From positions 1-21,436 of IMG/VR virus record IMGVR_UViG_3300025417_000106: a stretch of DNA of 21,436 bases; one strand, 5' to 3'. The position numbers and the translations under genes were made by a program. The notes under the pieces were generated by a model. That model was not told where the DNA came from. It did no database searches and saw only the letters and a program-made list of their open reading frames with translations. Source of the stretch: a virus. Positions within the stretch are counted from its first letter, which is position 1, and each line of letters starts with the position of its first letter. Shown one piece after another: positions 8,981 through 21,436 of this stretch.

Positions 8981-8994
8981 TTCTAAGGTTAGAA
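8981..8994. repeat. Dispersed palindrome, copy 1 (variant centre)
   Basis: TTCTAAGGTTAGAA differs from the consensus TTCTAACGTTAGAA only at the central CG (C to G). It lies 13 bases upstream of the -35 of the 9091 gene promoter. It is probably not transcribed from that promoter, which argues that the element acts as DNA rather than RNA. Confidence 0.8.
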
Positions 8995-9606: not shown

Positions 9607-9610
9607 CATC

Positions 9611-9628: not shown

Positions 9629-9633
9629 CCACC

Positions 9634-9658: not shown

Positions 9659-9660
9659 GT

Positions 9661-9680: not shown

Positions 9681-9823
9681 TGACAGTTGTTGATGCGCGG
9701 GAGAGGGGACGCAAGCGAGCGCACACGAGAGCATGAGCACGCGAGCAGGCAGGTGGGCGCGCGGGCGCAGGCGGGCAGGCGAGAGTCGCAGTATGCGTTG
9801 GCGTGGCAGGTCGCAGGTCAAAG

Positions 9824-9837
9824 TTCTAACGTTAGAA
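9824..9837. repeat. Dispersed palindrome, copy 2 (exact)
   Basis: Exact TTCTAACGTTAGAA, extended to 16 bp by flanking G and C. Intergenic, at the left border of the TGTTACA cluster. Confidence 0.9.
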
Positions 9838-9849
9838 CTCTGGTACAGC

Positions 9850-10220
9850 TGTTACAGAAAATAAGCTTATGTTACTTAAAAAATTGTAACAACACATATA
9901 ATAGTTTTCTAGAAAAAAGCTAATGAAATCAACGGCAGGTACAGCAGAGAGAGAGATTTATATATATATTTAGTTAGGTGTTACAGGTGTTACAGGGTTT
10001 TTTGAGCGGTTCCTTGGGAAGTTCTTCTAACGTTAGAAGTTTCAAAAAACATTTTTTGGAGAGTTTGAAAAAGTTTGGGCTTTCTAGGTCTGGTGGCCTT
10101 TTTTGGGCGTAACACGCGTACCAGACCCCCCTTTACTATAATATATCTCCCCCCAAGCCGCGCCCACCAACGAGCCTCCGTTCGGCCCTTTTTTGTAACA
10201 CCCCCTCCAAATTTGTAACA
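9850..10220. repeat. Cluster of TGTTACA / TGTAACA heptamers, candidate iterons
   Basis: Exact heptamers in either orientation occur at 9850, 9885, 9979, 9988, 10194 and 10214, with near matches at 9870 and 10109. The two at 9979 and 9988 form a direct repeat with 9-bp period. Random expectation in 370 bp is well below one. With neighbouring AT-rich tracts this resembles an iteron or initiator-binding array, or an operator cluster. A further copy overlaps the -10 of the promoter at 10710-10738. Confidence 0.5.
10025..10038. repeat. Dispersed palindrome, copy 3 (exact)
   Basis: Exact TTCTAACGTTAGAA in the non-coding region between the TGTTACA pairs, 201 bp after copy 2. Confidence 0.9.
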
Positions 10221-10239
10221 GCGTACCATGATAATTTAG

Positions 10240-10245
10240 TATAAT
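10240..10245 (+). promoter_or_regulatory. Possible -10 box for the 10276 gene
   Basis: TATAAT lies 30 bases upstream of the start codon of the RHH/HTH gene. No good -35 is seen at 16-18 bp. The leader would be short and lacks a clear Shine-Dalgarno. Confidence 0.35.
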
Positions 10246-10275
10246 TTCCGCTTTCAACCCACTTTTATTACACCA

Positions 10276-10713
10276 ATGCATATTCTAACGTTAGAACTTC
10301 CCGAGGACTTCGCTGATCGCCTCTCCACCCTGCATCCCAATGGCCTAGACCCCGCTGTGCGTGAAGCCATCAAAACCTACGTGAACCTTGGGGCGAGTAC
10401 TGTCACAAAACTCCGCGCAGACGCAACCGCTGCAAACGTGAGCATAGCTTCCATCATCAAACAAGCCCTTGCCAAACCCGAGCCATTCACCAGCTACCAC
10501 CGAAAAGACCGAGACCGTGAGATCATTGCTGATGTGCTTGCAGGCAAGCGTAGGGCGACTGTTGCAGCCAAACATAACCTAAGTCTCATCAGGGTGCACC
10601 AGATAATGGCGAAGTACAAGGCCGAAGAAGCCCTCAAAAACGGCACAGAATACCCCAGAACACACGATGTAAACCCCGAAAACAGGGGTGCAAACCCCAT
10701 CGAAAAGGCTTGA
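10276..10713 (+). CDS. Small DNA-binding protein, ribbon-helix-helix-like plus HTH-like; candidate regulator
   Basis: This is a 145-residue protein. Residues 3-37 (ILTLELPEDFADRLSTLH, then LDPAVREAIKTYV) read like a CopG/Arc-type ribbon-helix-helix: a short beta strand, then two helices. Residues 42-66 look like a second helix pair of similar type. Residues 78-115 (DREIIADVLAGKRRATVAAK, then HNLSLIRVHQIM) look like a helix-turn-helix. A palindrome copy covers codons 3-8, that is, the predicted DNA-contacting strand. Its stop codon lies inside the -35 of the next promoter. These points suggest an autoregulated repressor or activator of the plus-strand module. There is no clear ribosome binding site. 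Fold calls are by eye. Confidence 0.6.
   Translation: MHILTLELPEDFADRLSTLHPNGLDPAVREAIKTYVNLGASTVTKLRADATAANVSIASIIKQALAKPEPFTSYHRKDRDREIIADVLAGKRRATVAAKHNLSLIRVHQIMAKYKAEEALKNGTEYPRTHDVNPENRGANPIEKA
10283..10296. repeat. Dispersed palindrome, copy 4 (exact, coding)
   Basis: Exact copy starting 7 bases after the A of the start codon of the putative regulator, read as L-T-L-E. Binding here would block early transcription or translation of that gene, suggesting autoregulation. Confidence 0.9.
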
Positions 10714-10738
10714 CATATTATACTAATTGTGTTACAAT
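10710..10738 (+). promoter_or_regulatory. Strong sigma-70-type promoter of the main rightward operon
   Basis: Perfect TTGACA (10710-10715), 17-base spacer, and TACAAT (10733-10738), a 5/6 match. The -35 overlaps the TGA stop codon of the preceding gene. The -10 overlaps a TGTTACA heptamer. The first downstream gene is about 700 bases away, so this promoter drives a long leader. Confidence 0.85.
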
Positions 10739-10745
10739 AGTGTCT

Positions 10746-10769
10746 TGAGTGGGATATCGTGCCCACTCA
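10746..10769 (+). promoter_or_regulatory. Hairpin at the 5' end of the leader transcript
   Basis: 8-bp stem TGAGTGGG/CCCACTCA with an 8-base loop, beginning at the expected transcription start. Together with the downstream boxA-like element it resembles the hairpin/box architecture of antitermination sites, or it may stabilise the 5' end. Confidence 0.6.
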
Positions 10770-10797
10770 GCGGGTAGCCTTGCACATATATGCGCCC

Positions 10798-10812
10798 AGC
10801 TCTTTAAAAATT
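10798..10812 (+). promoter_or_regulatory. boxA-like antitermination element
   Basis: AGCTCTTTAAAAATT closely resembles the boxA of bacterial rRNA leaders (TGCTCTTTAACAA in E. coli; the form GCTCTTTAAAAATT is what I recall from beta-proteobacteria). BoxA RNA binds NusB/NusE and assembles an antitermination complex. It is about 55 bases into the leader transcript, the expected position. Such a site would help polymerase cross the hairpin-rich leader and the long operon. Confidence 0.6.
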
Positions 10813-10846
10813 CATGCATACAAGTATGGTTAATCCTAATGGTAAC

Positions 10847-10860
10847 TTCTAACGTTAGAA
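10847..10860. repeat. Dispersed palindrome, copy 5 (exact, 18-bp form)
   Basis: Exact core flanked by AC and GT, giving an 18-bp perfect palindrome, about 100 bases downstream of the main promoter in the leader. A bound protein here could act as a roadblock. Confidence 0.9.
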
Positions 10861-11195
10861 GTCTGTTGGGTACGCTGTACGAATTTAGCCGTCGCTGCCA
10901 AGTGGTAGAAGTGCAATAGATGACAACAAGCTAAGAAAAAGAAGGCCCATTGTAAGTAGCATTGATCGGTTTGTAGTTCATAGCAAACAGGTAGGCAATG
11001 TCAATAAGACCATAAGTCCATTAGTCCCTATGTGTGCGTAATCCTTTTTTAAGTCGCCAACTCCATGCCAACATCCCGATAATGTGAAAACAATGTAACC
11101 CCTCGCGTAGATGTAAAGAATCTCCCTGCATGAATAGACGTTGCGTAGTCAGCCGCAGTAGTTTGTGGTGTAGTAAGTAGTGAGCCATGTAAAAC

Positions 11196-11209
11196 TTCTA
11201 AGGTTAGAA
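11196..11209. repeat. Dispersed palindrome, copy 6 (variant centre)
   Basis: TTCTAAGGTTAGAA, the same central variant as copy 1, with the AC/GT outer flanks kept. It lies inside the structured leader. Confidence 0.8.
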
Positions 11210-11294
11210 GTATCCGGTTCCGAAAGCGATAGCAAACTGCAAAGTGTTCGCATAGTACCTAAATGGGTGGGCTGCTCTGGCTTAATAGTTTGTG

Positions 11295-11419
11295 CTGAGG
11301 TACGCCTCAGTTATCAGCCCTAAGGATGTGGGACTGCGTAAGCAGAATAAATCACACCGATAAACCCTATCGTACCGAAGTCGGAGAAGCCGACTGATAG
11401 CCTAGCGTGCTGGGCTATC
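11295..11419 (+). other. Five consecutive RNA hairpins before the 11444 gene
   Basis: Stems: CTGAGG/CCTCAG with TACG loop (11295-11310); CTGC/GCAG with GTAA loop (11334-11345); CGATA/TATCG (11358-11372); AGTCGG/CCGACT (11379-11395); and GATAGCC/GGCTATC with an inner AGC/GCT pair (11396-11419). The last two abut directly and could stack coaxially. No T tract follows, so they are not a simple terminator. They end 12 bases before the GGAGG of the next gene and could control its translation. Confidence 0.6.
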
Positions 11420-11443
11420 GGGAGTTTTCTTGGAGGTAAATAT

Positions 11444-11680
11444 ATGAGATGGATTAAAGAAAGAAAGAATCTTAGTTGGAACCTTGAGTATTCGGGCGTG
11501 ACTGCAATAGTTGCGTTCATTGCTAGGGCTAACCAGTCATATTCCCTATACATATGGGATAAAGAGCTAACAGCGTTTGAACCCCCAATCAAACTTCTAA
11601 CGTTAGAAGATGCTAAGAACATGGGCGTTATGTTGGTCAAACTTAGATATAGCGAGGTGTTAAATGGAATGGCGAGTTAG
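11444..11680 (+). CDS. Small phage protein, paralogue of the next gene
   Basis: This 78-residue protein is the first gene after the long leader, with a strong GGAGG before the ATG. The pattern LSWNLEYSG, YSLYIWDKELTAFE and LEDAKNMGVMLVKLRYSE parallels the following gene (LWGLEDA, FEVEVWDYG, LHEAQGLAKIMVQLRRSE). The two therefore look like diverged tandem duplicates with a beta-rich body and a C-terminal helix. Function is unknown. A palindrome copy at 11595-11608 is read as LTLE between body and helix. The end overlaps the next gene by 17 bases. Confidence 0.75.
   Translation: MRWIKERKNLSWNLEYSGVTAIVAFIARANQSYSLYIWDKELTAFEPPIKLLTLEDAKNMGVMLVKLRYSEVLNGMAS
11595..11608. repeat. Dispersed palindrome, copy 7 (exact, coding)
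   Basis: Exact copy read as L-T-L-E near the end of the 11444 gene and 56 bases before the next start codon. With its left flank (from 11586) it is identical over 23 bp to 14022-14044. Confidence 0.9.
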
Positions 11681-11891
11681 AAACCCAAATTATTTATGGG
11701 GTCTTGAAGATGCAACGATGATATATGCGTTTGTATGTTCATTGTCGAGCGGTGGGTTTGAAGTAGAAGTATGGGACTACGGCAGACACCGTATGGATTT
11801 TGTTGGGAGTACGGATACCCTGCATGAAGCGCAGGGGTTAGCAAAAATAATGGTTCAACTACGAAGGAGTGAGTACGATGCTGTTCAATGA
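11664..11891 (+). CDS. Small phage protein, paralogue of the preceding gene
   Basis: This 75-residue protein has the same layout as its upstream neighbour: W-L-E near residue 11-16, a WDYG turn, then a C-terminal helix with AKIMVQLRRSE. It starts inside the end of the preceding gene with GAGG upstream, and overlaps the next gene by 14 bases. Tandem duplication followed by divergence is likely. The palindrome carried by the first copy is missing here. Function unknown. Confidence 0.75.
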   Translation: MEWRVRNPNYLWGLEDATMIYAFVCSLSSGGFEVEVWDYGRHRMDFVGSTDTLHEAQGLAKIMVQLRRSEYDAVQ

Positions 11892-12108
11892 ATGGAGTGA
11901 GTGTGCACAATGCGGCGACGAATACCCGTCTGCCCGCAAAGAGTTAGGTTACAAGCTGTGCCTGTGGTGCGGCGAAGATCAGGCCAAAGCCGAGCGAGCG
12001 TCATGGTGCGTCGTGCAGGAATACGGCAAAGGCAACTACCAGTTTGTCACGGCATCATCTGCTGTGCGTACGTTAAAACAAACCAACCAAAAGGAGTTAC
12101 GAGGATGA
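11878..12108 (+). CDS. Small zinc-ribbon-like protein
   Basis: I chose the ATG at 11878 rather than the GTG at 11869, because AAGGAG (11864-11869) is ideally spaced for it. The 76-residue product begins with CAQCGDEYPSARKELGYKLC and then LWCG, giving two CxxC pairs about 17 residues apart that could bind one zinc ion. The rest is short and mixed. Such mini zinc ribbons are common in phages and may bind nucleic acid or partner proteins. No family is recognised. It overlaps the previous gene by 14 bases and the next by 4 (ATGA). Confidence 0.75.
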   Translation: MLFNEWSECAQCGDEYPSARKELGYKLCLWCGEDQAKAERASWCVVQEYGKGNYQFVTASSAVRTLKQTNQKELRG

Positions 12109-12485
12109 AAACAAGTGAACTAACCGGCGCTGCCCTTGACTGGGCTGTGGCGAAAACCGAAGGGGCAACAGATTTTTGGTTTGATACGGTGGCTACGTAC
12201 TGGGTCAAGCTAGACGGAAAAGACCGAGCACTGCGCTATGGGTGGGCGCAGTCTTACTTACCCTCAAAAGACTGGTGTCAGGGTGGGTCAATCATTGAGC
12301 GTGAAGGCATTGGTATTTGGATGTATCAGTGGAACGAGCAAGGCGAGCCCGAGGTGGGTTGGTATGCCGAGGACAAAGACGGCGACCACGTAAGGACTGC
12401 ACCGATACCATTGATTGCCGCCATGCGCTGCTATGTAGCAAGCAAGCTGGGAGATGAAATCGAACTGCCGGAGGAACTGAAATGA
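12105..12485 (+). CDS. NinX/DUF2591-type phage protein
   Basis: This 126-residue protein begins with TSELTGAALDWAVAKTEGA, contains YLPSKDWCQGGSIIEREGIG, and ends with IAAMRCYVASKLGDEIELPE. These are the hallmarks of the widespread phage family I know as DUF2591 (P22 NinX-type). Its role is not established. The GAGG ribosome binding site and ATG at 12105 overlap the preceding stop as ATGA. Length is normal and complete. Family assignment is from memory of the motifs. Confidence 0.8.
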   Translation: MKTSELTGAALDWAVAKTEGATDFWFDTVATYWVKLDGKDRALRYGWAQSYLPSKDWCQGGSIIEREGIGIWMYQWNEQGEPEVGWYAEDKDGDHVRTAPIPLIAAMRCYVASKLGDEIELPEELK

Positions 12486-12577
12486 ACCACTTCACATGGT
12501 TTCAAAAGATATTGTTTGTGCTCTACGTTATTGCGGTAATAGTTCTAACGTTAGATATTTTTATATGGGAGAAGTAA
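12482..12577 (+). CDS. 31-residue single-pass membrane peptide
   Basis: The ATG overlaps the upstream stop codon (ATGA), and the TAA is directly followed by the ATG of the next gene. This small frame is therefore positioned exactly as a real operon member. The peptide starts polar (MNHFTWFQK), has a hydrophobic stretch of about 18-20 residues (ILFVLYVIAVIVLTLDIFI) and ends WEK, typical of a single transmembrane segment. A near-exact palindrome encodes VLTLD inside the membrane segment. Function is unknown; a small membrane effector or spacer peptide is possible. Confidence 0.55.
   Translation: MNHFTWFQKILFVLYVIAVIVLTLDIFIWEK
12543..12556. repeat. Dispersed palindrome, copy 8 (one end mismatch, coding)
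   Basis: TTCTAACGTTAGAT differs only in the last base. It lies in the mini membrane gene, 21 bases before the 12578 start codon. The change keeps an Asp codon (GAT) in place of Glu. Confidence 0.75.
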
Positions 12578-13192
12578 ATGGAATACACAGAGTTAAGTGA
12601 CAAGGCCAAGCGCAAAGCACTTGATTGGTGGGCATCGGAAGATTGCTGGGATTATGAGTGCACGCTTGAGGATGCCAAAGCAAATGCCCCCGAAGGGTTC
12701 CACATAGAGGACATTATGTTCAGCGGGTTCTGGTCGCAGGGTGATGGCTGTGCATGGCGAGGCATATGCAACATGGCCGATTGGTTAGATGCCCGCACCC
12801 CGACAGACCCTCATTTACAGCATACATTTTTTGTGGTGCGTGAACTCATGCGGGATGGATGGATAGACGACCGTATCCGTATTGATTACCAGAGTCGGGG
12901 AGGTTGGCGTATGTCTGCTACGGATTTTGGTGGCATACACGCCCCCAATGAAGATTCAGTTATCAAGACAGGTGTGCTGAAAGGTGCATCAGTAATGGCG
13001 TTCATGGAGGACGGGGCTGAAGCGTTAGCAAACGAGCTAATAGAAGTCATCGTTGCGGATGCACAAGACTATGCCGACAAGATATACGACAACCTTGAGT
13101 CTGATTACAACCACCACACAAGCGAGGAGAACCTAATCGAAATGGCCGACTTCAACAACTGGGAATTCACCGAAGACGGTGAACTTGTATAA
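12578..13192 (+). CDS. Conserved phage/plasmid hypothetical protein
   Basis: This 204-residue acidic soluble protein starts with TELSDKAKRKALDWWASEDC and contains IEDIMFSGFWSQGDGCAWRG. I associate that motif with a family found on phages and plasmids whose role is unknown. The C-terminal third is acidic and helical (DAQDYADKIYDNLESDYNHH). The start has GGAGAAG and directly abuts the previous stop. A palindrome copy lies just upstream inside the preceding gene, another just after its end. No enzyme motif is visible. Confidence 0.8.
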   Translation: MEYTELSDKAKRKALDWWASEDCWDYECTLEDAKANAPEGFHIEDIMFSGFWSQGDGCAWRGICNMADWLDARTPTDPHLQHTFFVVRELMRDGWIDDRIRIDYQSRGGWRMSATDFGGIHAPNEDSVIKTGVLKGASVMAFMEDGAEALANELIEVIVADAQDYADKIYDNLESDYNHHTSEENLIEMADFNNWEFTEDGELV

Positions 13193-13193
13193 C

Positions 13194-13207
13194 TTCTAAC
13201 CTTAGAA
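13194..13207. repeat. Dispersed palindrome, copy 9 (variant centre)
   Basis: TTCTAACCTTAGAA, changed at the central dinucleotide only. It fills the gap between the 12578 and 13221 genes, just before a GAGAGAG ribosome binding site. Confidence 0.8.
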
Positions 13208-13220
13208 AGAGAGAGCAATC

Positions 13221-13997
13221 ATGAATACATACGAACGAATCAAAGCACACATTGCAAACCATGCATACAAGAAAGGCCAACACAAAGGCGACGCCCCTGC
13301 GGGTGATCGACGCATGACCCACTTACGATTAGTTGACCGAGGCGACCATGTGGTTGTGCATATGTGGCGTACCGATATTGTGCGGGCATACCCTGACGGC
13401 AAGCTGGTGATTGACTGCGATGGATGGTTAGGCCATTCGACAACTAAGCTGCGTTTGGGCGAAGCCCTGCATAAGTTTGCGCACATGAATTACGACCGAG
13501 GCATCCCCCATACGCGTAGCGTGTTCAGTTACAACCAATCAGTTATGCGTGTAGGGGGCAAGCTGATTCGATACTACGATGGTGTCACGCTTCAAGAGCA
13601 AGGGGTGGGAGAGTTTACTGTCACGAGCGAATTGCGCCCGTTCGAGGCCAAGCGTATCAACAAAGCAGAATCAAAAGAACTTAGCGACGGCATCAAAGCA
13701 TCGGGGTTCAAGGATATGTTTAAGATTCTTCATGCCACATCACCCAAGCCAGAAGGGAACCATTTGAATAGCTATTCGTATCGAGACATAAACCTCATTG
13801 TTACCAATGCAGAGTATGCGGGTCGTTGGGCTGACATGGTTCAAGACCTAAGCTGGGAACGTATGTACAGACCCACCGCAAGCGGGTACGAATTAGTGTG
13901 GCACAAGTCACCTGCGGAGGAAGTACGGAAATTCATCATGAACAAACTAAAAGGGAGTATGTATGAAGTCGTAAAGACAACCGTATATGAAAAGTAA
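13221..13997 (+). CDS. Conserved phage hypothetical protein
   Basis: This 258-residue protein is preceded by a purine-rich ribosome binding site and a palindrome copy. Residues about 42-75 (DHVVVHMWRTDIVRAYPDGK, then GWLGHSTTKLRLGEAL) match a pattern I have seen in phage proteins with a small beta domain carrying 'TD...YPDG...GW...T...R'. The central part and C-terminus (SPAEEVRKFIMNKLKGSMYE) are unremarkable. No catalytic motif is seen. It precedes the ATPase gene by 83 bases, the largest gap in this operon, which holds another palindrome. Function unknown. Confidence 0.8.
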   Translation: MNTYERIKAHIANHAYKKGQHKGDAPAGDRRMTHLRLVDRGDHVVVHMWRTDIVRAYPDGKLVIDCDGWLGHSTTKLRLGEALHKFAHMNYDRGIPHTRSVFSYNQSVMRVGGKLIRYYDGVTLQEQGVGEFTVTSELRPFEAKRINKAESKELSDGIKASGFKDMFKILHATSPKPEGNHLNSYSYRDINLIVTNAEYAGRWADMVQDLSWERMYRPTASGYELVWHKSPAEEVRKFIMNKLKGSMYEVVKTTVYEK

Positions 13998-14030
13998 GCA
14001 ACCAGTAAGTAATCTAAATCACAATCAAAC

Positions 14031-14044
14031 TTCTAACGTTAGAA
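14031..14044. repeat. Dispersed palindrome, copy 10 (exact, intergenic)
   Basis: Exact copy 36 bases before the ATPase start. Together with its flanks it matches 17267-17289 over 23 bp (14027-14049). The bases that follow (GAACTAATC) recur just before the ATPase ATG. Confidence 0.9.
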
Positions 14045-14080
14045 CTAATCACGAAAGCAGTTATCTGCAAGGAACTAATC

Positions 14081-15145
14081 ATGAACACAATCACTTTAGC
14101 CCAAGCTTCTACACTCGTCCGTACCATCGGTTCTTCAAATACCATCCTCATGCGGGGTCAGCCGGGGATTGGCAAATCATCCATCCTCAACACCTTGGCT
14201 CGTGAACTGCCCGACTATGCGATGTGCTACATCGACGTAGCCAACCTTGACCTTGGTGACTTGGGTATGCCTGTGATCGACCGAGATACCATGACGACTG
14301 CATATGCACCGAACACTCGATTCGGTGTGGGGCGTAATCAAAACAAGCCTGTCGTGCTGATGCTCGACGAGCTGGGCAAGGCGTCGCGCCCTGTGCTGAA
14401 TATGTTGTTGCCTGTTATCTTAGAACATCGCATCGGTGACGTACCCCTGCCAACAGGTAGCATTGTGTTCGGTACTACTAACTTAGATACCGATGGTGTG
14501 GGCGACAACATCCCAGCCCATGCATACAACCGCATGACCGTGGTGAACATTGCAAACCCAACAGTAGACGAGTGGCTGAACTGGGCGTCGAACAACGACA
14601 TTGCACCTGAGGTTATGGCGTTTGCTAAACAGTATCCACAAGTCTTCGACTGCTATGCAGACAGCGACAAGGACACCAAGAACCCCTATATCTTTAACCC
14701 AATGAACGGCAACGTTCGTGCGTTCTGTTCTCCACGTTCACTCGCTAAGGCATCTAACATCGTGAAGCAACGTGACATCTTGGGCAGCGCAACGCTGACT
14801 GCATTGATCGGTACGGTGGGCGAGGCGGCGGCACGAGACATGGAGGCATTGATTCACTTGGCCGACCAGTTGCCCCTGTTCGAGAACATTGTGCGTGACC
14901 CTGCGAATACCAAACTGCCGGACGGTGCGGGTGCTATGTTTATCTTGGCGTTCATGTTGGCAGGTCGTGTGAACAAGGACTCAATCGACAGCGTGATGGA
15001 ATACATGGAACGTGTGGCTAGGGTTTCGTTCGAGGCTCATGCATTGTTCATGACGACTGTGTGCAGTAACCCCAGCAAGGTAAGCATGGCGTGTATGAAT
15101 AAGAAGTTCACAACACAAGCGGCCAAGCTGGGCAAATACTTCTAA
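14081..15145 (+). CDS. MoxR-like AAA+ ATPase (CobS-like)
   Basis: This 354-residue protein has a Walker A GQPGIGKSS at 26-34, Walker B VVLMLDELGKA at 91-101, a sensor-1 GTTNLDTD near 131-138, and a downstream SPRSLAKAS resembling sensor 2. The 'LDELGKAS.PVLNMLLPVI' helix and the insert order fit the MoxR/RavA/CobS group, which act as unfoldase or metal-insertion chaperones together with VWA proteins. Such a VWA protein is encoded two genes downstream. The ribosome binding site is AAGGAA. The stop codon TAA lies inside a palindrome copy. The substrate is unknown; modification of a host or phage protein complex is inferred. Confidence 0.88.
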   Translation: MNTITLAQASTLVRTIGSSNTILMRGQPGIGKSSILNTLARELPDYAMCYIDVANLDLGDLGMPVIDRDTMTTAYAPNTRFGVGRNQNKPVVLMLDELGKASRPVLNMLLPVILEHRIGDVPLPTGSIVFGTTNLDTDGVGDNIPAHAYNRMTVVNIANPTVDEWLNWASNNDIAPEVMAFAKQYPQVFDCYADSDKDTKNPYIFNPMNGNVRAFCSPRSLAKASNIVKQRDILGSATLTALIGTVGEAAARDMEALIHLADQLPLFENIVRDPANTKLPDGAGAMFILAFMLAGRVNKDSIDSVMEYMERVARVSFEAHALFMTTVCSNPSKVSMACMNKKFTTQAAKLGKYF

Positions 15146-15153
15146 CGTTAGAA
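15140..15153. repeat. Dispersed palindrome, copy 11 (exact, 18-bp form, contains a stop codon)
   Basis: Exact core with AC/GT flanks. It supplies the last Phe codon and TAA stop of the ATPase gene (TTC TAA) and ends 3 bases before the next ATG. Confidence 0.9.
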
Positions 15154-15156
15154 GTT

Positions 15157-15390
15157 ATGGATAAATGGAAGCCCATAGATGGGTGGGATATAGAGCAGAT
15201 GCCATTCGATAACTACATGGTTATCAAGCTACTAGCCGACCCAGTAACAAAACGTATAGCGTTTATCGCTGTGCCTACATCGTACAGCGCACACACTCTT
15301 GAAGGTATGGAAATCCTAGCGACTGACCTAACTAAAGAAGAAGCTGTGGGCATGGCGAAACTATTTAACACAAGTAACCGGAGTGAGTAA
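15157..15390 (+). CDS. Small protein between ATPase and VWA genes
   Basis: This 77-residue soluble protein has a WKPIDGWDIEQMPFDNYMVI N-terminus, a beta-rich middle, and a helical end with TKEEAVGMAKLFNTS. The end weakly resembles the C-terminal helix of the 11444/11664 pair. The usual ribosome binding site position is occupied by the palindrome, giving only a weak AGAAG, so initiation may depend on coupling to the ATPase gene or be modulated by whatever binds the site. The stop and next start overlap (TAATG). Function unknown. Confidence 0.7.
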   Translation: MDKWKPIDGWDIEQMPFDNYMVIKLLADPVTKRIAFIAVPTSYSAHTLEGMEILATDLTKEEAVGMAKLFNTSNRSE

Positions 15391-16562
15391 TGAATACAGA
15401 AGATCGAATCAAGAAGGCGCACATTGCGATCATGCAACACAAGGAGTTCTGTGCGTTCTCAGGCATCCTAGCCTGTGGCAAAGTGAAGGTAACCGAGGAC
15501 ATACCGACTGCGTGTACCAATGGCTGGGACGTTCTATACAACCCCAAGTTCATCGAGGAACACATGAAGACCGACCCAGAGTTGCGGTTCTTAATCTTGC
15601 ACGAGGCAATGCACAAAGCCTATCGGCACATCACGGTGTGGAAATCCCTGCATGAGCAAGACCCACATCTTGCAAACGTATCGGCAGACTACTTCGTGAA
15701 CCTTGCATTAGAAGATACAGACAAGGGCAATGGCTTCGTCACGATGCCCAAGCTAGGCATACAACCAGACTCTAAGTATCGGGGCTGGTCGGTTAAACAA
15801 ATCTTCGATGACTTGCAACAGCAACAAGACGAGGACGACAACGGGCAAGGTGACGGCGAGGGCGATGGGTTTGATGAGCATGATTGGGATGGTGGTGAGC
15901 AAGTCGATGCAGCCAAGGAATCCGAACGTGCCAACGAAATCCAACGTGCCATTCGTCAAGGCGAGATCATGCGTAAGAAGTTGCAAGGTAAGGGCGCGGG
16001 TAGTAGCGATGGTGTGTTCGGTGATCTACTGCAACCCAAGGTTGATTGGCGCAAGGTACTGCGTGAGTTCATTACCGAAACTTGTGCAGGTAACGATGAA
16101 TCGACTTGGCGCAAACCTAACCGTAGGTACTTGGGCATGGACATCTATATGCCCAGCATGATTAGCAACAAGATCAACGAGCTGGTGATTGGCTTCGATA
16201 CATCAGGCTCATGCTTCGGTGGGTATGAAATGGCGCGGTTCGTTTCGGAGATTAAAACTATCATCGAGCAAGTCAAGCCAAGCAAAACTCATATTTTGTA
16301 CTGGGACTCAGAAGTCGCAGGTCATCAGACTTTCGAGGATGGGCAGTTCGCTGTTCAAGACTTGAAGCCCAAAGGTGGCGGCGGCACAGACGGTAGCGTG
16401 TTGTTTGATTACTTGCGTGAGAAAGCTATTCGTCCTAATGCGATCGTGCAGTTTAGCGATGGGTATGTAGGCGACTGGGGGCACACCGATGTGCCAACAC
16501 TCTGGGCACTAACTTCTAACGTTAGAAGTCCATTCGGAATCACTATTAACTTGGAGGACTAA
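15390..16562 (+). CDS. Metallopeptidase-like / VWA-domain protein (DUF2201-type)
   Basis: The 390-residue protein has an N-terminal zincin-like domain with HEAMHKAYRH (HExxH at 71-75). An acidic, glutamine- and glycine-rich linker follows (143-170). The C-terminal VWA domain has a full MIDAS: DTSGS (270-274), the GGGGTD loop (329-334) and FSDGY (355-359). This is the DUF2201/VWA-like architecture that pairs with MoxR-type ATPases, as in CobS-CobT or RavA-ViaA systems. The VWA domain would bind the ATPase or substrate through a metal. A palindrome copy encodes TSNVRS (375-380), near the end. The start overlaps the previous stop. Confidence 0.88.
   Translation: MNTEDRIKKAHIAIMQHKEFCAFSGILACGKVKVTEDIPTACTNGWDVLYNPKFIEEHMKTDPELRFLILHEAMHKAYRHITVWKSLHEQDPHLANVSADYFVNLALEDTDKGNGFVTMPKLGIQPDSKYRGWSVKQIFDDLQQQQDEDDNGQGDGEGDGFDEHDWDGGEQVDAAKESERANEIQRAIRQGEIMRKKLQGKGAGSSDGVFGDLLQPKVDWRKVLREFITETCAGNDESTWRKPNRRYLGMDIYMPSMISNKINELVIGFDTSGSCFGGYEMARFVSEIKTIIEQVKPSKTHILYWDSEVAGHQTFEDGQFAVQDLKPKGGGGTDGSVLFDYLREKAIRPNAIVQFSDGYVGDWGHTDVPTLWALTSNVRSPFGITINLED
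16514..16527. repeat. Dispersed palindrome, copy 12 (exact, 18-bp form, coding)
   Basis: Exact core with AC/GT flanks, read as S-N-V-R in the last 16 residues of the VWA protein, 37 bases before the 16565 start. Confidence 0.9.
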
Positions 16563-16564
16563 TC

Positions 16565-16948
16565 ATGGGATACAGAAGTCAAGTGTCATGCGTCATTTAC
16601 CCAACCGAACGCCATCGGGATGTGGGTGAGGAACGCTACGACTTAATCAAAACTCTAATGAACACGCAGTTCAAGGATGTCATGGACTATTGGAGTGACA
16701 ACTACTTTGTCTGGTATGACCACAAGAAAGTGTTGGAGTTCACGGCTAGTGATATCAAGTGGTACGACGGGTATCCTGAAATACAGCGGTTCAACGAGAT
16801 GCGGGAGTTTTTTGAGAATGAACTTAACGAGCAGATAAGCGTTGAGTTTGCCCGCATCGGTGAGGAGTACAACGACATAGACATTGAATGTTCTGCCTAC
16901 GCAGAGAACTTACTGAACATAAACCGATCAATTGAAACAGATTTTTAA
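16565..16948 (+). CDS. Conserved small phage protein (MGYRSQV type)
   Basis: This 127-residue acidic protein begins MGYRSQVSCVIYPTE, the start of a family of phage hypothetical proteins usually written MGYRS-[DQ]-V. A later VLEFTASDIKWYDGYPEIQR segment also fits that family, in which a tryptophan-tyrosine patch follows a beta strand. The ribosome binding site GGAGG precedes the ATG by 7 bases. No catalytic motif is apparent. Function unknown. Confidence 0.8.
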   Translation: MGYRSQVSCVIYPTERHRDVGEERYDLIKTLMNTQFKDVMDYWSDNYFVWYDHKKVLEFTASDIKWYDGYPEIQRFNEMREFFENELNEQISVEFARIGEEYNDIDIECSAYAENLLNINRSIETDF

Positions 16949-16957
16949 GGGGTAACC

Positions 16958-17260
16958 ATGAAACTATTTAAAACACTCAAAAACTATTTTGACCTGAAGC
17001 AGGATATTAAAAATATGCAGTCTGCCATACGAGCGCCGCTTGTTAGTAAAGGTATTTCGGACACCAGAATGGACTCACTCGACACAGACCCGCATCTCAT
17101 TGTGCAGCTTGTTTCTGCGGTAAACGGCAAACTACTGCAATACCGCAAGCGTGACGTAGTGCACGACAGGTGGTTTACCCATGTGTATATCGTGCGGCCT
17201 GATGAATCCTTGGCCGATGCAATCGCAACTATTCTTGTAATCGCTGGAGAGCAATCATGA
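16958..17260 (+). CDS. Hypothetical protein
   Basis: This 100-residue protein has a basic helical N-terminus (KLFKTLKNYFDLKQDIKNM) and a mixed C-terminal domain that closes with ESLADAIATILVIAGEQ. A strong AAGGGG precedes the ATG. Its stop overlaps the start of the next gene (ATGA), so the two are coupled. No family is recognised. The N-terminal helix could be amphipathic or coiled coil. Confidence 0.75.
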   Translation: MKLFKTLKNYFDLKQDIKNMQSAIRAPLVSKGISDTRMDSLDTDPHLIVQLVSAVNGKLLQYRKRDVVHDRWFTHVYIVRPDESLADAIATILVIAGEQS

Positions 17261-18171
17261 ATTACGAAACTTCTAACGTTAGAACTAATACAGTAGCAGG
17301 TGTGGCACGGAGTGCGATGCTGGTGGACTTGAACATCTCAGTGTATTCAGGTCGCAAGCAGGACAAATCAACTCAGGCCGAGGTGACGAGTGCCAAGGGC
17401 TCAGGCTCTAAGAAGGCGGCGTCTGTATATAAAAATTTGTTTGCTGAGTGCAAAGAGTTGGAGAACATCACCAAGTTCCAAGCAAGGGCTCGGGCTGAAC
17501 ATTACCGCATGACTCTGCCGTGGAATGACCACGGTGCACGACTGCTACCTACCATCTCGCTGATGGATTACCAAAAGACTATGGGTCGGTTCCGCTCTGA
17601 GTTTGATCTGCTGGTCGAGGCGTTCTTGGACAAGTACGACACATTGGTAGCGGCGGCGGCGTTTCAGCTTGGCACTCTGTTTGATCGGGGCGAATACCTG
17701 ACACGCAATCAAGTAGCACAACGGTTCCGCATGGACTCTAGCTTCACGCCACTGCCAACGGCAGGGGACTTTCGTTTAGATGTTGAGAGTACGGTGCAAC
17801 GTGAACTCGTAGAGCAATACGAACGCAAGCTAGAAGAACAGTTAACTCAGGCTAATCGTGATGCATGGGATAGGTTGCACACAGCGTTGACTAAGCTGAG
17901 TGACCGGCTGGTGGTTGAGGAAGATGGTAAGAAGCGTGTGTTCCACGACACGTTGGTAACTGGTGCGGTTGATCTGTGCGAGTTGTTGACTGCGATGAAC
18001 ATTACAAAAGACCCTCAGCTTGAGTCAGCTCGGCGTCAGCTTGAGGCCGTACTATCCGGTGTAACACCTAAAGAACTGCGGGAAGAAGATGGCACACGGG
18101 TACTTACAAAACAAAAGGTTGATGCGATCCTTGATGCTTTCGACTGGGGGGAGGAGGCTGATGTCGAATAA
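17257..18171 (+). CDS. Third protein of the ATPase-VWA module (DUF3150-like)
   Basis: This 304-residue, mostly helical protein has LVDLNISVYSGRKQDKSTQA near its start, then AECKELENITKFQARARAEH and later VESTVQRELVEQYERKLEEQ. The layout resembles DUF3150-type proteins, often encoded with a MoxR/CobS ATPase and a CobT-like VWA protein on phages and mobile elements. I infer it is the partner or substrate adaptor of that pair. A palindrome read as SNVR lies at residues 6-9, so the extreme N-terminus is shaped by the site. The ribosome binding site is GGAGAG. Family match is by memory and moderately sure. Confidence 0.6.
   Translation: MNYETSNVRTNTVAGVARSAMLVDLNISVYSGRKQDKSTQAEVTSAKGSGSKKAASVYKNLFAECKELENITKFQARARAEHYRMTLPWNDHGARLLPTISLMDYQKTMGRFRSEFDLLVEAFLDKYDTLVAAAAFQLGTLFDRGEYLTRNQVAQRFRMDSSFTPLPTAGDFRLDVESTVQRELVEQYERKLEEQLTQANRDAWDRLHTALTKLSDRLVVEEDGKKRVFHDTLVTGAVDLCELLTAMNITKDPQLESARRQLEAVLSGVTPKELREEDGTRVLTKQKVDAILDAFDWGEEADVE
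17271..17284. repeat. Dispersed palindrome, copy 13 (exact, coding)
   Basis: Exact copy 14 bases after the A of the start codon of the DUF3150-like gene, read as S-N-V-R. With flanks it is identical over 23 bp to 14027-14049. Confidence 0.9.
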
Positions 18172-18562
18172 ATTATTGTCAGTAGACTTGGTAGCTAAAG
18201 AAGCACTTGCATTATTAGAAAGAGGTTTGCAGTACCAGTACACAGAGGAGGGTAGATTTTTGCGATGGGACAGAGACCGAACACACATGAATACATTTAT
18301 TGATACCGAACGTAGTGACCCTGATACCGAGTATCGCTATGAAGAACGTGAGGGTCATTACAGTTTGTCGCAATGGAGTGATGCAAAGACAGCCAAGCGA
18401 CACGGTGAAATTGCGGGGCGACCTGATTGGCTCGTCAACATCATAGACATGGCAAAGATTGGCGGGTATGCCCGCCGTATCATCCAACCACCACCAGACC
18501 TAATCGTTTGGTTTACGACCGACAGCAAGGGCAACCTTGTTAAATTTATTGAAATGGAATGA
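18161..18562 (+). CDS. Hypothetical protein
   Basis: I place the start at the ATG at 18161, not at an upstream in-frame codon, because a very strong GGGGGAGGAGG (18147-18156 region) lies just before it. The 133-residue product begins with helices (SVDLVAKEALALLERGLQYQ) and carries many charged residues. It ends with RRIIQPPPDLIVWFTTDSKG, a beta-like finish. It overlaps the preceding gene by 11 bases. No recognised family. Confidence 0.75.
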   Translation: MSNKLLSVDLVAKEALALLERGLQYQYTEEGRFLRWDRDRTHMNTFIDTERSDPDTEYRYEEREGHYSLSQWSDAKTAKRHGEIAGRPDWLVNIIDMAKIGGYARRIIQPPPDLIVWFTTDSKGNLVKFIEME

Positions 18563-18563
18563 C

Positions 18564-18740
18564 ATGACTTATGACCACTTAACAGATGAAGAACTATTGC
18601 GATACGCAGATGGGCAGACAGGTTTGATTAAAGCTTTGTCCGAACGACTAGAGATGCGTATGCGTGACGTTTACGAACTTGAACATCCAGACCAATTATC
18701 ACTTTTTGAGGATTGCAAAAATGGGAACATTACAGACTGA
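18564..18740 (+). CDS. Small acidic protein
   Basis: The ATG at 18564 directly follows the previous stop. The 58-residue product (TYDHLTDEELLRYADGQTGL and onward) is helical and acidic. The LTDEELLRYADG opening is common in short phage proteins of unknown role. It overlaps the next gene by 20 bases. Initiation probably depends on reinitiation, as only a weak GGA is upstream. Confidence 0.65.
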   Translation: MTYDHLTDEELLRYADGQTGLIKALSERLEMRMRDVYELEHPDQLSLFEDCKNGNITD

Positions 18741-19239
18741 ACTTGAACGCACCCTTGCTGAATGGGATAAACAAGACGAAGTTCTAACGTTAGAAGTTAC
18801 GGAACAACCAATGAATAAATCAAAACGCGAAACCACAGGTACTACACGTGCCACATTTAAGATGGTGGTAGACAACCCCGGCATGACTAAATCGCAGATC
18901 GTTGCGAAGCTAGAAGCTGCTGGGCACAAACGACAATCAACCTCAAGCCTCATCAGCGCATACGTTGGTTCAGGGGTATTTGTGCAGAAAGAGAATGGTG
19001 CGTTATTTTCAACCACGTCTGATTATGTGCCTAGCTCAAGCGCTTTTGCTACTGAACGAGCCGCCGCACAAACCCAACGTAGAGCCGCTAAGAAAGTGGC
19101 AACTGCCCCTACACAAGATGAACAAACGGTTTTGAAACTTCCACCTACAAAGCTAACTGCCGAGTATGTGCTGGACAACATCAGCTTCGGTGAGGGCGTG
19201 AAGTTATTTGAAACATTAACCCGTGCGTTTAGGGGATGA
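18721..19239 (+). CDS. Probable winged-helix DNA-binding protein
   Basis: The ATG at 18721 has GAGG about 9 bases upstream and is preferred over an earlier GTG. The 172-residue protein has an acidic N-terminus containing a palindrome-encoded LTLE. A region at about 44-100 (FKMVVDNPGMTKSQIVAKLE, then TSSLISAYVGSGVFVQKENG) reads like a winged helix: helix, helix-turn-helix, then beta wing. An Ala/Arg linker and a C-terminal segment (LTAEYVLDNISFGEGVKLFE) follow. It is the second candidate regulator of the palindrome family. By-eye fold assignment. Confidence 0.6.
   Translation: MGTLQTELERTLAEWDKQDEVLTLEVTEQPMNKSKRETTGTTRATFKMVVDNPGMTKSQIVAKLEAAGHKRQSTSSLISAYVGSGVFVQKENGALFSTTSDYVPSSSAFATERAAAQTQRRAAKKVATAPTQDEQTVLKLPPTKLTAEYVLDNISFGEGVKLFETLTRAFRG
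18782..18795. repeat. Dispersed palindrome, copy 14 (exact, coding; last copy)
   Basis: Exact copy read as L-T-L-E, 61 bases into the winged-helix-like gene. No further copy is seen in the remaining 2.6 kb. Confidence 0.9.
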
Positions 19240-19241
19240 AC

Positions 19242-19409
19242 ATGACACAAGTACCGTACTCAAAGATCAGTTACCCACCCAAGGACTTCGTATGGAAGTC
19301 GGGCAGTGACGTGCAGGCGCTATGGCGCAAGCATGGCTGGGTTCCCCCTAGCGAAACAATGACACCGCCCCCACCCGAGAAATACATCGAGATCAAGGGG
19401 AAGAAATGA
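19242..19409 (+). CDS. Small proline-rich protein
   Basis: A 55-residue frame with AGGGGA six bases before the ATG at 19242; its stop overlaps the next start (ATGA). The product contains YSKISYPPKDFVWKSGSDVQ, an LWRKHGWVPPSE segment and a PPPPEK stretch. It is short, but the tight junctions on both sides argue for a real gene. The 'W.KHGWVPPS' pattern is typical of short phage proteins of unknown role. Confidence 0.65.
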   Translation: MTQVPYSKISYPPKDFVWKSGSDVQALWRKHGWVPPSETMTPPPPEKYIEIKGKK

Positions 19410-19606
19410 CTGACGAAAAAATTATTGAAATAGCAAAAAAATGTGGTTGGGACAATCCAGCCACAAACATGGCCCCTTTATATGAGTTTGCCAAACTGGT
19501 AGCAGAGCATGAGCGTGAAAACTTCTGCGCCTTATTGCGCCAGATGCACGACAGCATCAGCCTGCAAAGTGACCCGACTGGGCTCAAGATAAGAGGTGAA
19601 GCATGA
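19406..19606 (+). CDS. Small MTDE...FAKLVA paralogue 1
   Basis: This 66-residue protein starts MTDEKIIEIAKKCG and contains FAKLVAEHERENF. It belongs to a family of three here (also 19603 and 21093) sharing an N-terminal helix, a variable middle and the FAKLVAxHE helix. Such proteins are frequent in freshwater phages and recall Ea22-like accessory genes. The DNA for the FAKLVA helix is nearly identical between copies. It overlaps neighbours by 4 bases on both sides. Function unknown. Confidence 0.75.
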   Translation: MTDEKIIEIAKKCGWDNPATNMAPLYEFAKLVAEHERENFCALLRQMHDSISLQSDPTGLKIRGEA

Positions 19607-19809
19607 CTGACGAACAGATCATTGAGATGGCTAGACAGGTTGGCATAAAACGGCGCACTGATAAGTTTTTCTCAGAATATTGTGACGGTATTTATGATGA
19701 TGATCTTAAAGCCTTTGCCAAACTGGTAGCACAGCATGAGCGTGGTAGAATGTGCGAACAATGTCAATGGAGTAAACATGAAAAAGCAGCGTGCAATGAA
19801 ACCAATTGA
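19603..19809 (+). CDS. Small MTDE...FAKLVA paralogue 2
   Basis: This 68-residue protein starts MTDEQIIEMARQVG and contains FAKLVAQHERGRM. A short tail follows with CEQCQWSKHEKAAC, which could bind a metal (CxxC...C). It differs from paralogue 1 mainly in the middle and tail, as if the conserved N-terminal unit had been joined to different ends. Its last 32 bases overlap the HNH gene in another frame, suggesting the HNH gene was inserted at, or captured, its 3' end. Confidence 0.75.
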   Translation: MTDEQIIEMARQVGIKRRTDKFFSEYCDGIYDDDLKAFAKLVAQHERGRMCEQCQWSKHEKAACNETN

Positions 19810-20254
19810 ACAAAGATTTTGGGAAAAGGTCAACAAAGAAACCGCCAATGGATGTTGGGAATGGAGCAGTGCCGTTAGGGGGAATGGTTACGGTGCTTTT
19901 TTTACGCACTTACTTAATGAGGGGCGTAAATGTCACGGGGCACATAGGTATTCATGGATGATGGTCAATGGGCCAATTCCTGAGGGCTTATGGGTACTAC
20001 ACAAATGTGATAACAGAATTTGTGTCAATCCAGATCATTTGTTTCTCGGAGACAGAACTGACAACATGCGTGATTGCGCTAAGAAAAAACGAGTTTGCAC
20101 AATAGGTCAATCAAATAAAACCCATTGCAAACGAGGACATGAATTCACGGAAAAGAACACAAAGTTAAACAAAATTGGTCATCGTAGTTGCAAGACTTGC
20201 ATTGCGATACGAGAAAAATTAGTACGCAAAACAGCAAGAGCAAAGCATGACTGA
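19778..20254 (+). CDS. HNH endonuclease (HNH_3 type)
   Basis: The ATG at 19778 with TGGAG upstream is preferred over an earlier GTG. The 158-residue protein carries the HNH core: HRYSWMMVNGPIPEGLWVLH, then KCDNRICVNPDHLFLG and N-M-R-D, matching the HNH_3 pattern. A C-terminal zinc-like segment follows (THCKRGHEFTEKN with SCKTC). This is like free-standing phage homing endonucleases that cut intronless target sites. The CKRGH motif echoes CKHGH of the partial gene at the left edge. It overlaps both neighbours. It is probably selfish or involved in packaging/recombination. Confidence 0.85.
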   Translation: MKKQRAMKPIEQRFWEKVNKETANGCWEWSSAVRGNGYGAFFTHLLNEGRKCHGAHRYSWMMVNGPIPEGLWVLHKCDNRICVNPDHLFLGDRTDNMRDCAKKKRVCTIGQSNKTHCKRGHEFTEKNTKLNKIGHRSCKTCIAIREKLVRKTARAKHD

Positions 20255-20420
20255 CACATCAAAAGAATACACATTTACTGCGCCACCCAAACCCGTGGGA
20301 TATTGGGTTTTGTATGAAGGCGCACCTCAACTAATGATGTTTGCTATGCACCACAAACCGACTGACCAGCAGATCAAAAACACAGAAGAACTACTGGGTT
20401 GGAAATGGAGAGACGCATGA
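20247..20420 (+). CDS. Small hypothetical protein
   Basis: A 57-residue frame whose ATG overlaps the end of the HNH gene and whose stop overlaps the next start (ATGA). The product has TFTAPPKPVGYWVLYEG, a beta-like PQLMMFAMHHKPT stretch and a short C-terminal helix. No family is recognised. Support comes from position and the tight junctions; no strong ribosome binding site is seen. Confidence 0.55.
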   Translation: MTDTSKEYTFTAPPKPVGYWVLYEGAPQLMMFAMHHKPTDQQIKNTEELLGWKWRDA

Positions 20421-20578
20421 CTGAAGAACAAATACTCGCTGAGATGGAAAAGATTAGAGAGGCACAGGCACATTGGCAGAGCGCACAGGATGGCTCTTAT
20501 GAGATGGCCCTGCACTACGCAGGCTACACACGCCTGAGAAATGAACTTAAAGCATTAAGAGAGGCTAAACATGACTAA
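20417..20578 (+). CDS. Small helical protein
   Basis: A 53-residue frame beginning MTEEQILAEMEKIREAQAHW, predicted as two helices; it ends LRNELKALREAKHD. The start has the same ATGACTGA opening as the MTDE family, so it may be a diverged relative. It overlaps the previous gene by 4 bases and the next by 8. Similar short helical proteins abound in this end of phage genomes. Function unknown. Confidence 0.6.
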   Translation: MTEEQILAEMEKIREAQAHWQSAQDGSYEMALHYAGYTRLRNELKALREAKHD

Positions 20579-20753
20579 AGACGAAGCCCTACGCATGGCG
20601 TTGGAAGCGCTGGATGCGTTGTGCATCAATGACTACAGCGGGTATGAACTTGGAAAACGAGATGCACACCTTGTTGACAACGCCCTTACCGCAATCAAAG
20701 AAGCCCTAGAAGAAGCCCTAGAGCAAAAGCAACAGGAGAAACAAAATGACTAA
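20571..20753 (+). CDS. MTKDEALRMALE family protein 1
   Basis: This 60-residue protein opens with MTKDEALRMALEALDAL and closes with TAIKEALEEALEQKQQEK. The 'MTKDEAL..ALEAL...AIKEAL' pattern is widespread in phages of Gram-negative hosts, often beside Ea22-like genes. The following gene shares the same opening almost base for base, so the two are tandem duplicates. Its end overlaps that gene by 8 bases. Helical, probably coiled coil. Function unknown. Confidence 0.75.
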   Translation: MTKDEALRMALEALDALCINDYSGYELGKRDAHLVDNALTAIKEALEEALEQKQQEKQND

Positions 20754-21096
20754 AGACGAAGCCTTGCGTATGGCGCTGGAGTATTTGGAAGAAAGTAACA
20801 GCTATCTTGGGTCGCTTGACTACAGTGAACCAATTGCAGCTATCAAAGAAGCACTGGCACAACCAAAGCGTGAAATTTTAGGTAATGTTGATTACATCCC
20901 GTGTTGCACAGACCAGACTTGCCCAAAATGTAAACCTCCACAATCAGAGCCTGAATGGGTTGGTCTGACAGAAGAAGATATTGATTCTGCTGAAATTCAT
21001 CTAACCTCATGCCGCAACAATCACGAATCATGGATTGAAGGCATACATGAATTTGCTAATGCCCTAGAAGCCAAACTCAAGGAGAAGAACACATGA
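20746..21096 (+). CDS. MTKDEALRMALE family protein 2, longer form
   Basis: This 116-residue protein has the same N-terminal unit as its upstream neighbour (MTKDEALRMALEYLEE ... AAIKEALAQ). A cysteine cluster (CCTDQTCPKCK) follows, then WVGLTEEDIDSAEIHL and a helical end. The GLTEED segment is also common in modular phage accessory proteins. The composition suggests a shuffled fusion of two small modules. Start has AGGAG. It overlaps the next gene by 4 bases. Confidence 0.75.
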   Translation: MTKDEALRMALEYLEESNSYLGSLDYSEPIAAIKEALAQPKREILGNVDYIPCCTDQTCPKCKPPQSEPEWVGLTEEDIDSAEIHLTSCRNNHESWIEGIHEFANALEAKLKEKNT

Positions 21097-21436
21097 CTGA
21101 CGAACAAATCATTGAAATGGCTAAAAAATTGGGTTTTGAGCGTATGCGTATAGACCATGATTACTATCTTTGCTTTTCAAATGAAATCGTGGAATTTGCC
21201 AAACTGGTAGCACAGCATGAGCAGGGTGAGCCACTAAAAGACATGAGCGAAATGAACCGAACAATTGCTTACTGTGCCGCATCAAAGCTACGTGAAATTG
21301 GCTATGAGTGGGATGGTAAAAACTGGGTTCAGAAAGCGCAGGAGCCTGTGGGGTGGATAAGCAACAAAGACTTTGAACCCATCAGAATCAGGATTATGCA
21401 AGAGGCTTATGAACTTGCAGACAGCAATAATCCTGA
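21093..21436 (+). CDS. MTDE...FAKLVA paralogue 3, 3' end cut by window
   Basis: The frame stays open for 114 codons to the right edge, starting at the ATG at 21093 after AAGGAGAAGAAC. It opens MTDEQIIEMAKKLGFERMRI and contains FAKLVAQHEQGEP, the signature of paralogues 1 and 2. It then continues into a different region with YEWDGKNWVQKAQEPVGWIS, a pattern found in Ea22-like phage proteins. The longer tail shows that the conserved unit is joined to different C-terminal modules. Incomplete in this window. Confidence 0.75.
   Translation, partial: MTDEQIIEMAKKLGFERMRIDHDYYLCFSNEIVEFAKLVAQHEQGEPLKDMSEMNRTIAYCAASKLREIGYEWDGKNWVQKAQEPVGWISNKDFEPIRIRIMQEAYELADSNNP

Follow-up and report, generated by a model that had tools for sequence, protein, structure and literature searches.

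What would a phage do with a MoxR-like ATPase, a protein that combines a metallopeptidase domain with a VWA domain, and a DUF3150-like protein, and what might control their genes? The three genes lie together at positions 14,081 to 18,171 of a 21,436-base viral fragment (IMG/VR record IMGVR_UViG_3300025417_000106), which we will refer to as the window. An earlier note on this DNA had reported six open reading frames in this region, three large and three small, and all six are where it placed them (Table 1). Our preferred answer, which we hold tentatively, is that the three large genes encode an early-expressed trio for remodelling proteins; that they lie under an array of early-gene operators; that the target is likelier to belong to the host or to a competing element than to be a virion protein; and that the product of the gene that begins at position 9091 most likely binds all of the operators. 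(We name some other genes and proteins by the gene's first position as well.)

In the window, leftward genes at 200-8750 encode head and packaging proteins, including the major head protein, a GroES-like protein, the portal, and the terminase large subunit (TerL). The genes from 9091 onward run rightward; the early block starts there, and the trio is part of it.

Identity of the three large proteins

The ATPase is MoxR-like and complete, as the earlier note had proposed: Walker A (GQPGIGKS), Walker B (LMLDE), sensor-1 (N134), and the arginine (R151) are all intact. Its score against Pfam's AAA family is slightly above the cut-off (22.8 vs. 21.2 bits).

The second protein does join an HExxH site and a MIDAS-VWA domain. 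It matches PF13203 (DUF2201_N, 111 bits) and PF09967 (DUF2201 VWA-like, 56 bits), both well above the cut-off, and its motifs are complete: HEAMH at residues 71-75 is the HExxH site, and DTSGS, T333, and D357 make up the MIDAS. We found no detectable sequence match between this protein and solved structures. It also matches PHROG 1314, which is labelled "HNH endonuclease" even though its members are metallopeptidase-VWA proteins, and many phage records, such as those of Vibrio phages and PA5oct, have taken this label over. We rejected the HNH identity for the window's protein, as Pfam shows no HNH domain in it.

The third protein scores 22.4 bits against Pfam's DUF3150 (PF11348), which is below the curated cut-off of 24.9 bits, so "DUF3150-like", the label given in the earlier note, is the fitting wording. 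It is homologous to the annotated DUF3150 protein of Synechococcus phage MinM2 (E = 4e-20) and to annotated Cupriavidus plasmid proteins, and 8 of 18 aligned DUF3150-like homologues match PF11348 at E ≤ 1e-3. An AlphaFold2 model of the protein has a beta element, long helices, and a C-terminal helical bundle (predicted local distance difference test, pLDDT, 82.6; predicted template modelling score, pTM, 0.75). A fold search with the DUF3150-like protein returned common helical bundles alone, with no confident match. PADLOC gave generic P-loop matches alone.

Conservation of the trio in related viruses

We fetched 88 related viral loci with DUF3150 and VWA queries, and 73 of them have the full trio. 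These loci were found via two of the three genes, with patterns that included the HExxH region, so the counts are somewhat biased, that for the ATPase least so. In 14 of the 15 loci without the full trio, the missing gene would fall past the end of the contig. The other locus, L071, is the sole one of these 15 that lacks DUF3150 despite having 3.6 kb of downstream sequence, which counts against our view of the three genes as a unit. L071 also has a 56-amino-acid gene between those for the ATPase and the VWA protein (L071:2407-2577) that resembles sigma-70 region 4 by eye (ISRERVRQIQESAIGKMRRRL).

The active sites are not degenerate in the homologues. P28, G29, G31, K32, D96, N134, and R151 of the ATPase are invariant or nearly so across 71 homologues, as are H71, E72, H75, N96, D100, D270, S272, S274, T333, and D357 of the VWA protein across 79 homologues. 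The key residues are also kept in N4-like phage G7C, in Planktothrix phage Pag-Yong1, and on two plasmids, all of which came from outside the HExxH-pattern searches; those of the ATPase are kept in cyanophage homologues as well. Together with the co-occurrence of the trio, this bears out the analogy to bacterial MoxR-VWA pairs that the earlier note had drawn.

Occurrence in other phages and on plasmids

The ATPase-VWA pair itself is already known. We found relatives of the VWA protein in 577 of 50,697 phage records and relatives of the ATPase in 616. By tblastn, the VWA protein matches gp25 of G7C (3e-29) and PA5oct (7e-30), and the two genes adjoin in G7C (gp24 and gp25) and in one Vibrio phage. 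In N4, genes 24 and 25 are among the core genes of the N4-like phages (PMC4193335). A MoxR / metallopeptidase-vWA pair was also described in jumbo phages (group 2.2), and a role in virion assembly was proposed (Iyer et al. 2021, PMC7824862). The window's pair has the same two proteins, in the same order and with the same motifs, and gp24 and gp25 of G7C are direct homologues, so the pair is a member of this kind. What differs is the DUF3150-like third gene, which is fixed to the pair here and makes it a variant.

DUF3150 is the less-known part of the trio. It is present in 3 phage records only, and we did not find it in records of N4-like or jumbo phages. It is on 41 plasmids, mostly from Burkholderiales. 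Among the matches listed, a VWA gene lies within a few kb of DUF3150 in 40 of 40 plasmids; the 41st is a Rhodovastum plasmid. Plasmid pBMC401 has the trio in the order ATPase-DUF3150-VWA, with conjugation genes adjacent and no virion genes nearby. We also searched genome contigs with a VWA profile, and a Parvularcula contig has the same order. More broadly, the pBMC401-type plasmids of Burkholderiales and phage Pag-Yong1 have the same three families adjacent to each other, at about 25-30% identity, but with the order ATPase-DUF3150-VWA instead of the window's ATPase-VWA-DUF3150. Among cultured phages, only the group of Pag-Yong1 (L091) has the full trio, and Pag-Yong1 has a palindrome of its own, GGTTCAG-N-CTGAACC, in 11 copies. 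We found nothing on DUF3150 or on such palindromes in the literature collection that we searched. The MoxR-VWA pair is in the core genome of N4-like phages, and its link to DUF3150, both in phages and on conjugative plasmids, makes for a small complex that can be tested.

An array of palindromes across the early block

The palindromes are more unusual than the conserved trio, and they lead to a candidate DNA-binding family. The earlier note had reported a palindrome at the start, at the end, or within each of the three large genes. The positions are correct (sites 11 to 13 in Table 1), but the palindromes are not specific to those genes: they belong to an array of 14 sites that spans the whole early block, so we rejected the idea that they are features of the three large genes. 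The window's own site is TTCTAACGTTAGAA. With up to 2 mismatches, TCTAACGTTAGA has 14 copies in the window (vs. 0.45 expected), and no shuffle reaches 14. The sites span 8982-18794, and none of them is among the late genes.

The window's exact palindrome has 0 copies in the 88 related loci. The general pattern emerged only after we searched each locus for its own palindrome. The relatives' versions include AACTTCTAAGCTTAGAAGTT, AAAGTTATAAGGTTATAACTTT, CATCTAATATTAGATG, CTTTTAA-NN-TTAAAAG, and others, and the relatives hold 8-17 copies of their own version, which have changed in concert. In 64 of the 93 loci that we scanned, a multi-copy palindrome scored higher than any of 279 Markov-shuffled controls did. 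Over the full length of 61-65 kb records, the sites are confined to one block of about 10-11 kb. We counted 352 early-side sites in 30 loci, while the 52,043 bases of late strand contained 0.

Within the block, 36% of sites lie 0-40 nucleotides before a start codon (vs. 6% of random positions), and many are about 16-17 nucleotides from it. A frequent arrangement is stop codon, palindrome, Shine-Dalgarno sequence, ATG. Among the 30 loci, a site is at the start of the ATPase gene in 27, the VWA gene in 25, gene 13221 in 24, and the DUF3150 gene in 14. Because none of the 30 has a site at the start of gene 18161, the array ends with the trio. Site 12 of the window, which is within the VWA gene, alters the local protein sequence (SNVRS, vs. 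SD-type residues in relatives), which suggests that the DNA site is maintained at a cost to the protein.

What the trio might do

RavA-ViaA and CbbQ-CbbO are remodelling machines with a MoxR-type AAA+ motor and a VWA partner. The window's pair resembles these, as well as CobS-CobT, NorQ-NorD, and p618-p892 of Acidianus two-tailed virus (ATV), in that a MoxR-type AAA+ motor is matched with a VWA-MIDAS partner, although this is an analogy in how they would work. It differs from RavA-ViaA and the other MoxR-VWA pairs in that a DUF2201_N metallopeptidase makes up the N-terminal half of its VWA partner. By this analogy, a MoxR-type motor whose VWA partner has an HExxH site is most likely a remodelling machine. 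The ATPase would form the ring motor, and the metallopeptidase-VWA protein would act as the motor's adaptor and possibly also as a protease on the substrate. The DUF3150-like protein would be a third subunit dedicated to choosing or delivering that substrate. As the target, we think most likely a protein assembly, of the host or of a competing element, that phages and conjugative plasmids both need altered.

The earlier note had listed host takeover, anti-defence, and virion protein maturation as candidate roles. The early position, the early operators that are absent from the late strand, and the presence of the trio on conjugative plasmids argue against a virion protein as the substrate, and so these lean towards a host-directed or element-directed role. 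The plasmids also argue that the job of the pair is not specific to virions.

The main rival, which we consider somewhat unlikely, is that the pair acts on a capsid or tail protein by folding it, assembling it, or trimming it, in line with the proposal for the group 2.2 jumbo phages (Iyer 2021, PMC7824862). Two observations in other viruses fit this rival and weigh against our own reading. In ATV, p618 interacts with p892 (the VWA protein) and with virion proteins, and it is itself a virion protein, which supports a role in maturation in outline. And an ATPase gene four genes upstream of the VWA homologue in PA5oct is flagged as detected by electrospray ionization tandem mass spectrometry (ESI-MS/MS), which hints that members of the same family associate with the virion. 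On the other hand, the trio belongs to the early block and is encoded on the other strand from the structural genes; the operators are absent from the late genes; genes 24 and 25 of N4 are middle genes; and the trio is present on plasmids, which have no virions. Another alternative, that the trio is a chelatase-like or cofactor-inserting machine of the CobS/CobT or NorQ/NorD type that acts on a metalloenzyme, shares the same AAA+ plus VWA-MIDAS logic but is very unlikely: Pfam and PHROGs show neither a CobN-like protein nor an enzyme partner in the module, and the VWA protein starts with a metallopeptidase domain, whereas CobT and NorD have none, to our knowledge. The fold-search results for the DUF3150-like protein also list no CobN-like match, although such a list may miss one.

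A candidate reader for the palindromes

In the reading that we prefer, the genes of the trio are the last stretch of the early block, the gene junctions of this block would carry phage-specific operators, and a single phage protein would bind all of the sites and tune early expression. The best candidate is the 9091 protein, from the first gene of the early block, which had no match in Pfam, PHROGs, PDB, or phage records. For 22 protein families, we compared the similarity of the proteins between phages to the similarity of the sites, while controlling for the similarity of the ATPase and of the VWA protein. The 9091 family had the highest partial correlation (r = 0.57, p = 0.001, N = 28), and the next family had 0.32. 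(We tried several families and several cuts of the data, so the p-values for readers are exploratory.) When we repeated the analysis with alignment distances, the partial correlation was 0.31 for the whole 9091 protein and 0.52 for its residues 1-110 (p = 0.001). Residues 111-171 gave -0.11, and the terminase small subunit (TerS), which is adjacent, gave -0.23. Since residues 1-110 track the site while residues 111-171 and the adjacent TerS do not, plain linkage does not explain the association. Among the protein parts compared, the N-terminus of the 9091 protein is thus the one that varies most closely with the site, and this is moderate evidence for the 9091 protein as a candidate for a new kind of DNA-binding protein.

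Three results weigh against this assignment. Among AACTT-type sites alone, the association with 9091 drops to r = 0.18 (p = 0.087). When TerS, TerL, and the VWA protein are all controlled for, it is 0.13 (p = 0.17, N = 17). And for 27 held-out contigs, predicting the site from the nearest neighbour was right for 25 with the 9091 protein, 24 with TerS, and 23 with TerL; as the three predict about equally well, this test does not discriminate between them. Similarly, the base before TAA can be predicted correctly for 19 of 21 held-out contigs from the 9091-protein residue that follows "RDL", but we rejected this single-residue rule as discriminating evidence because the nearest neighbours by TerS or TerL do about as well.

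At first we favoured a different reader, the helix-turn-helix (HTH) protein encoded by gene 10276, which was then outperformed by gene 9091 and which we now think is unlikely to read the palindromes. Most members of its family have a recognizable HTH with weak similarity to Mor/C, the gene has a palindrome on its own start, and its recognition helix correlates with the site (partial r = 0.31, p = 0.003). However, the 10276 proteins of L018 and L026 are near-identical, yet the two loci differ in their sites and in their 9091 proteins. Conversely, L012 and L018 have common sites and near-identical 9091 proteins but dissimilar 10276 proteins, and L015 and L024 also have common sites without a common 10276 protein. 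Once the N-terminus of the 9091 protein is controlled for, the signal for 10276 is 0.00, while the reverse is 0.49.

Alternatively, the palindromes might act in RNA, as hairpins that affect processing, stability, or translation, or they might be recombination boundaries. The sites are at gene junctions near Shine-Dalgarno sequences, and short hairpins are possible. But among the mismatches in the arms, the transcribed strand has no surplus of the G-U type (104, compared with 182 for the mirror type), so a site in duplex DNA fits better than an RNA hairpin, and the change of all sites together with one part of one protein is what would be expected of an operator. We doubt that either of these alternatives is correct.

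To return to the 9091 protein, we suggest, also tentatively, that it represents a new phage family of DNA-binding proteins that reads a palindromic operator at most early gene junctions. Its N-terminus and all of the 8-17 sites would be retargeted together between close relatives, and each phage would thereby have a private early regulon that includes the ATPase / metallopeptidase-VWA / DUF3150 machine also present on conjugative plasmids. The 9091 protein is probably an autoregulated repressor or road-block, because many of the sites are too near start codons for an activator. Ten relatives, each 56-68 kb long, gave no match to an integrase domain of the tyrosine or serine recombinase type, so control of lytic timing is likelier than a lysogeny repressor.

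Two known systems offer partial parallels. Cluster A mycobacteriophages have 20-30 phage-specific stoperators, many of them away from promoters, and these sites diverge together with their cognate protein (PMC6550527, PMC9283540). The window's array is similar in having many phage-specific sites near gene boundaries that diverge along with a protein, although here the protein is a candidate only. Stoperators, though, are asymmetric 13-bp sites spread along the genomes of temperate phages (PMC6550527, PMC9283540), while the palindromes are about 20 bp, are confined to the early block, and are from phages with no detected integrase. In Cluster K, the SAS are repeats just before start codons, and about half have an inverted repeat upstream, the ESAS, with 17-bp arms and variable spacers of 4-13 bp, beside the separate SAS (PMC3203893). 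The position before start codons is shared, but our element is a single compact palindrome with a centre of 0-4 bases. The array would amount to a natural experiment in which a regulator and at least 10 sites change specificity together, and with many matched pairs of proteins and sites, it could yield a recognition code for the candidate family.

Small genes, neighbours, and other features

The earlier note's six-gene module holds for the trio and for gene 16565, which are in most of the relatives; gene 16958 is in few of them and gene 15157 in none (Table 1). The three small genes thus belong to the module only in part, and gene 16565 alone is widely conserved. Two genes outside the 14081-18171 region, 13221 and 18161, are better conserved than the small genes.

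Table 1. Genes and palindrome sites in the early block of the window
Feature	Coordinates	Strand	Remarks
Palindrome site 1	8982..8993		TCTAAGGTTAGA; just upstream of promoter-like TTGACA-17-CACAAT preceding gene 9091
Orphan protein, 171 aa	9091..9606	+	First early-block gene; best candidate reader (residues 1-110), by partial correlation with site type
Palindrome site 2	9825..9836		
Palindrome site 3	10026..10037		
HTH protein	10276..10713	+	Second candidate reader; palindrome on own start; weak Mor/C and sigma-70 region 4 similarity
Palindrome site 4	10284..10295		Codons 3-7 of gene 10276
Palindrome site 5	10848..10859		
Palindrome site 6	11197..11208		TCTAAGGTTAGA
Palindrome site 7	11596..11607		
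Palindrome site 8	12544..12555		Before gene 12578
Palindrome site 9	13195..13206		TCTAACCTTAGA; between stop 13192 and start 13221
Conserved upstream neighbour, 258 aa	13221..13997	+	Family in 68/76 loci having the ATPase
Palindrome site 10	14032..14043		Before ATPase start
MoxR-like AAA+ ATPase, 354 aa	14081..15145	+	PHROG 1297 "ATPase", E = 2e-54
Palindrome site 11	15141..15152		On ATPase stop codon
Small ORF, 77 aa	15157..15390	+	No tblastn match in 88 loci
DUF2201_N metallopeptidase + VWA-like protein, 390 aa	15390..16562	+	Pfam PF13203 + PF09967
Palindrome site 12	16515..16526		Last codons of VWA gene, before gene 16565
Conserved small gene, 127 aa	16565..16948	+	Family in 34/41 analysed loci
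Small gene, 100 aa	16958..17260	+	Family in 11/41 loci
DUF3150-like protein, 304 aa	17257..18171	+	Sub-threshold Pfam match + homology to annotated DUF3150
Palindrome site 13	17272..17283		Codons 6-9 of DUF3150-like gene
Conserved downstream neighbour, 133 aa	18161..18562	+	Palindrome at start in 0/30 loci
Palindrome site 14	18783..18794		Last of array

Amid the head genes, the GroES-like co-chaperonin gene (3438-3848) adjoins the portal gene. In the early block, 11901-12485 encodes a NinX-like protein (Pfam P22 NinX, 62 bits). A consensus-like sigma-70 promoter has TTGACA at 10710-10715, a 17-base spacer, and TACAAT at 10733-10738. Downstream of it are about 700 bases with two palindromes but no clear gene, and this stretch (10710-11443) is a possible non-coding RNA, although an Rfam search of the window gave no matches. 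The early blocks of relatives also keep a small four-cysteine protein that looks like a DksA/TraR zinc finger by eye (the family of L088:1049-1549, in 57 loci); we did not find this family in the window. After the end of the array, 19406-21436 has repeated short paralogous genes (MTDEQIIEMA..., MTKDEALRMALE...) and an open reading frame (19778-20254) with a motif that, judged by eye, is like that of HNH endonucleases.

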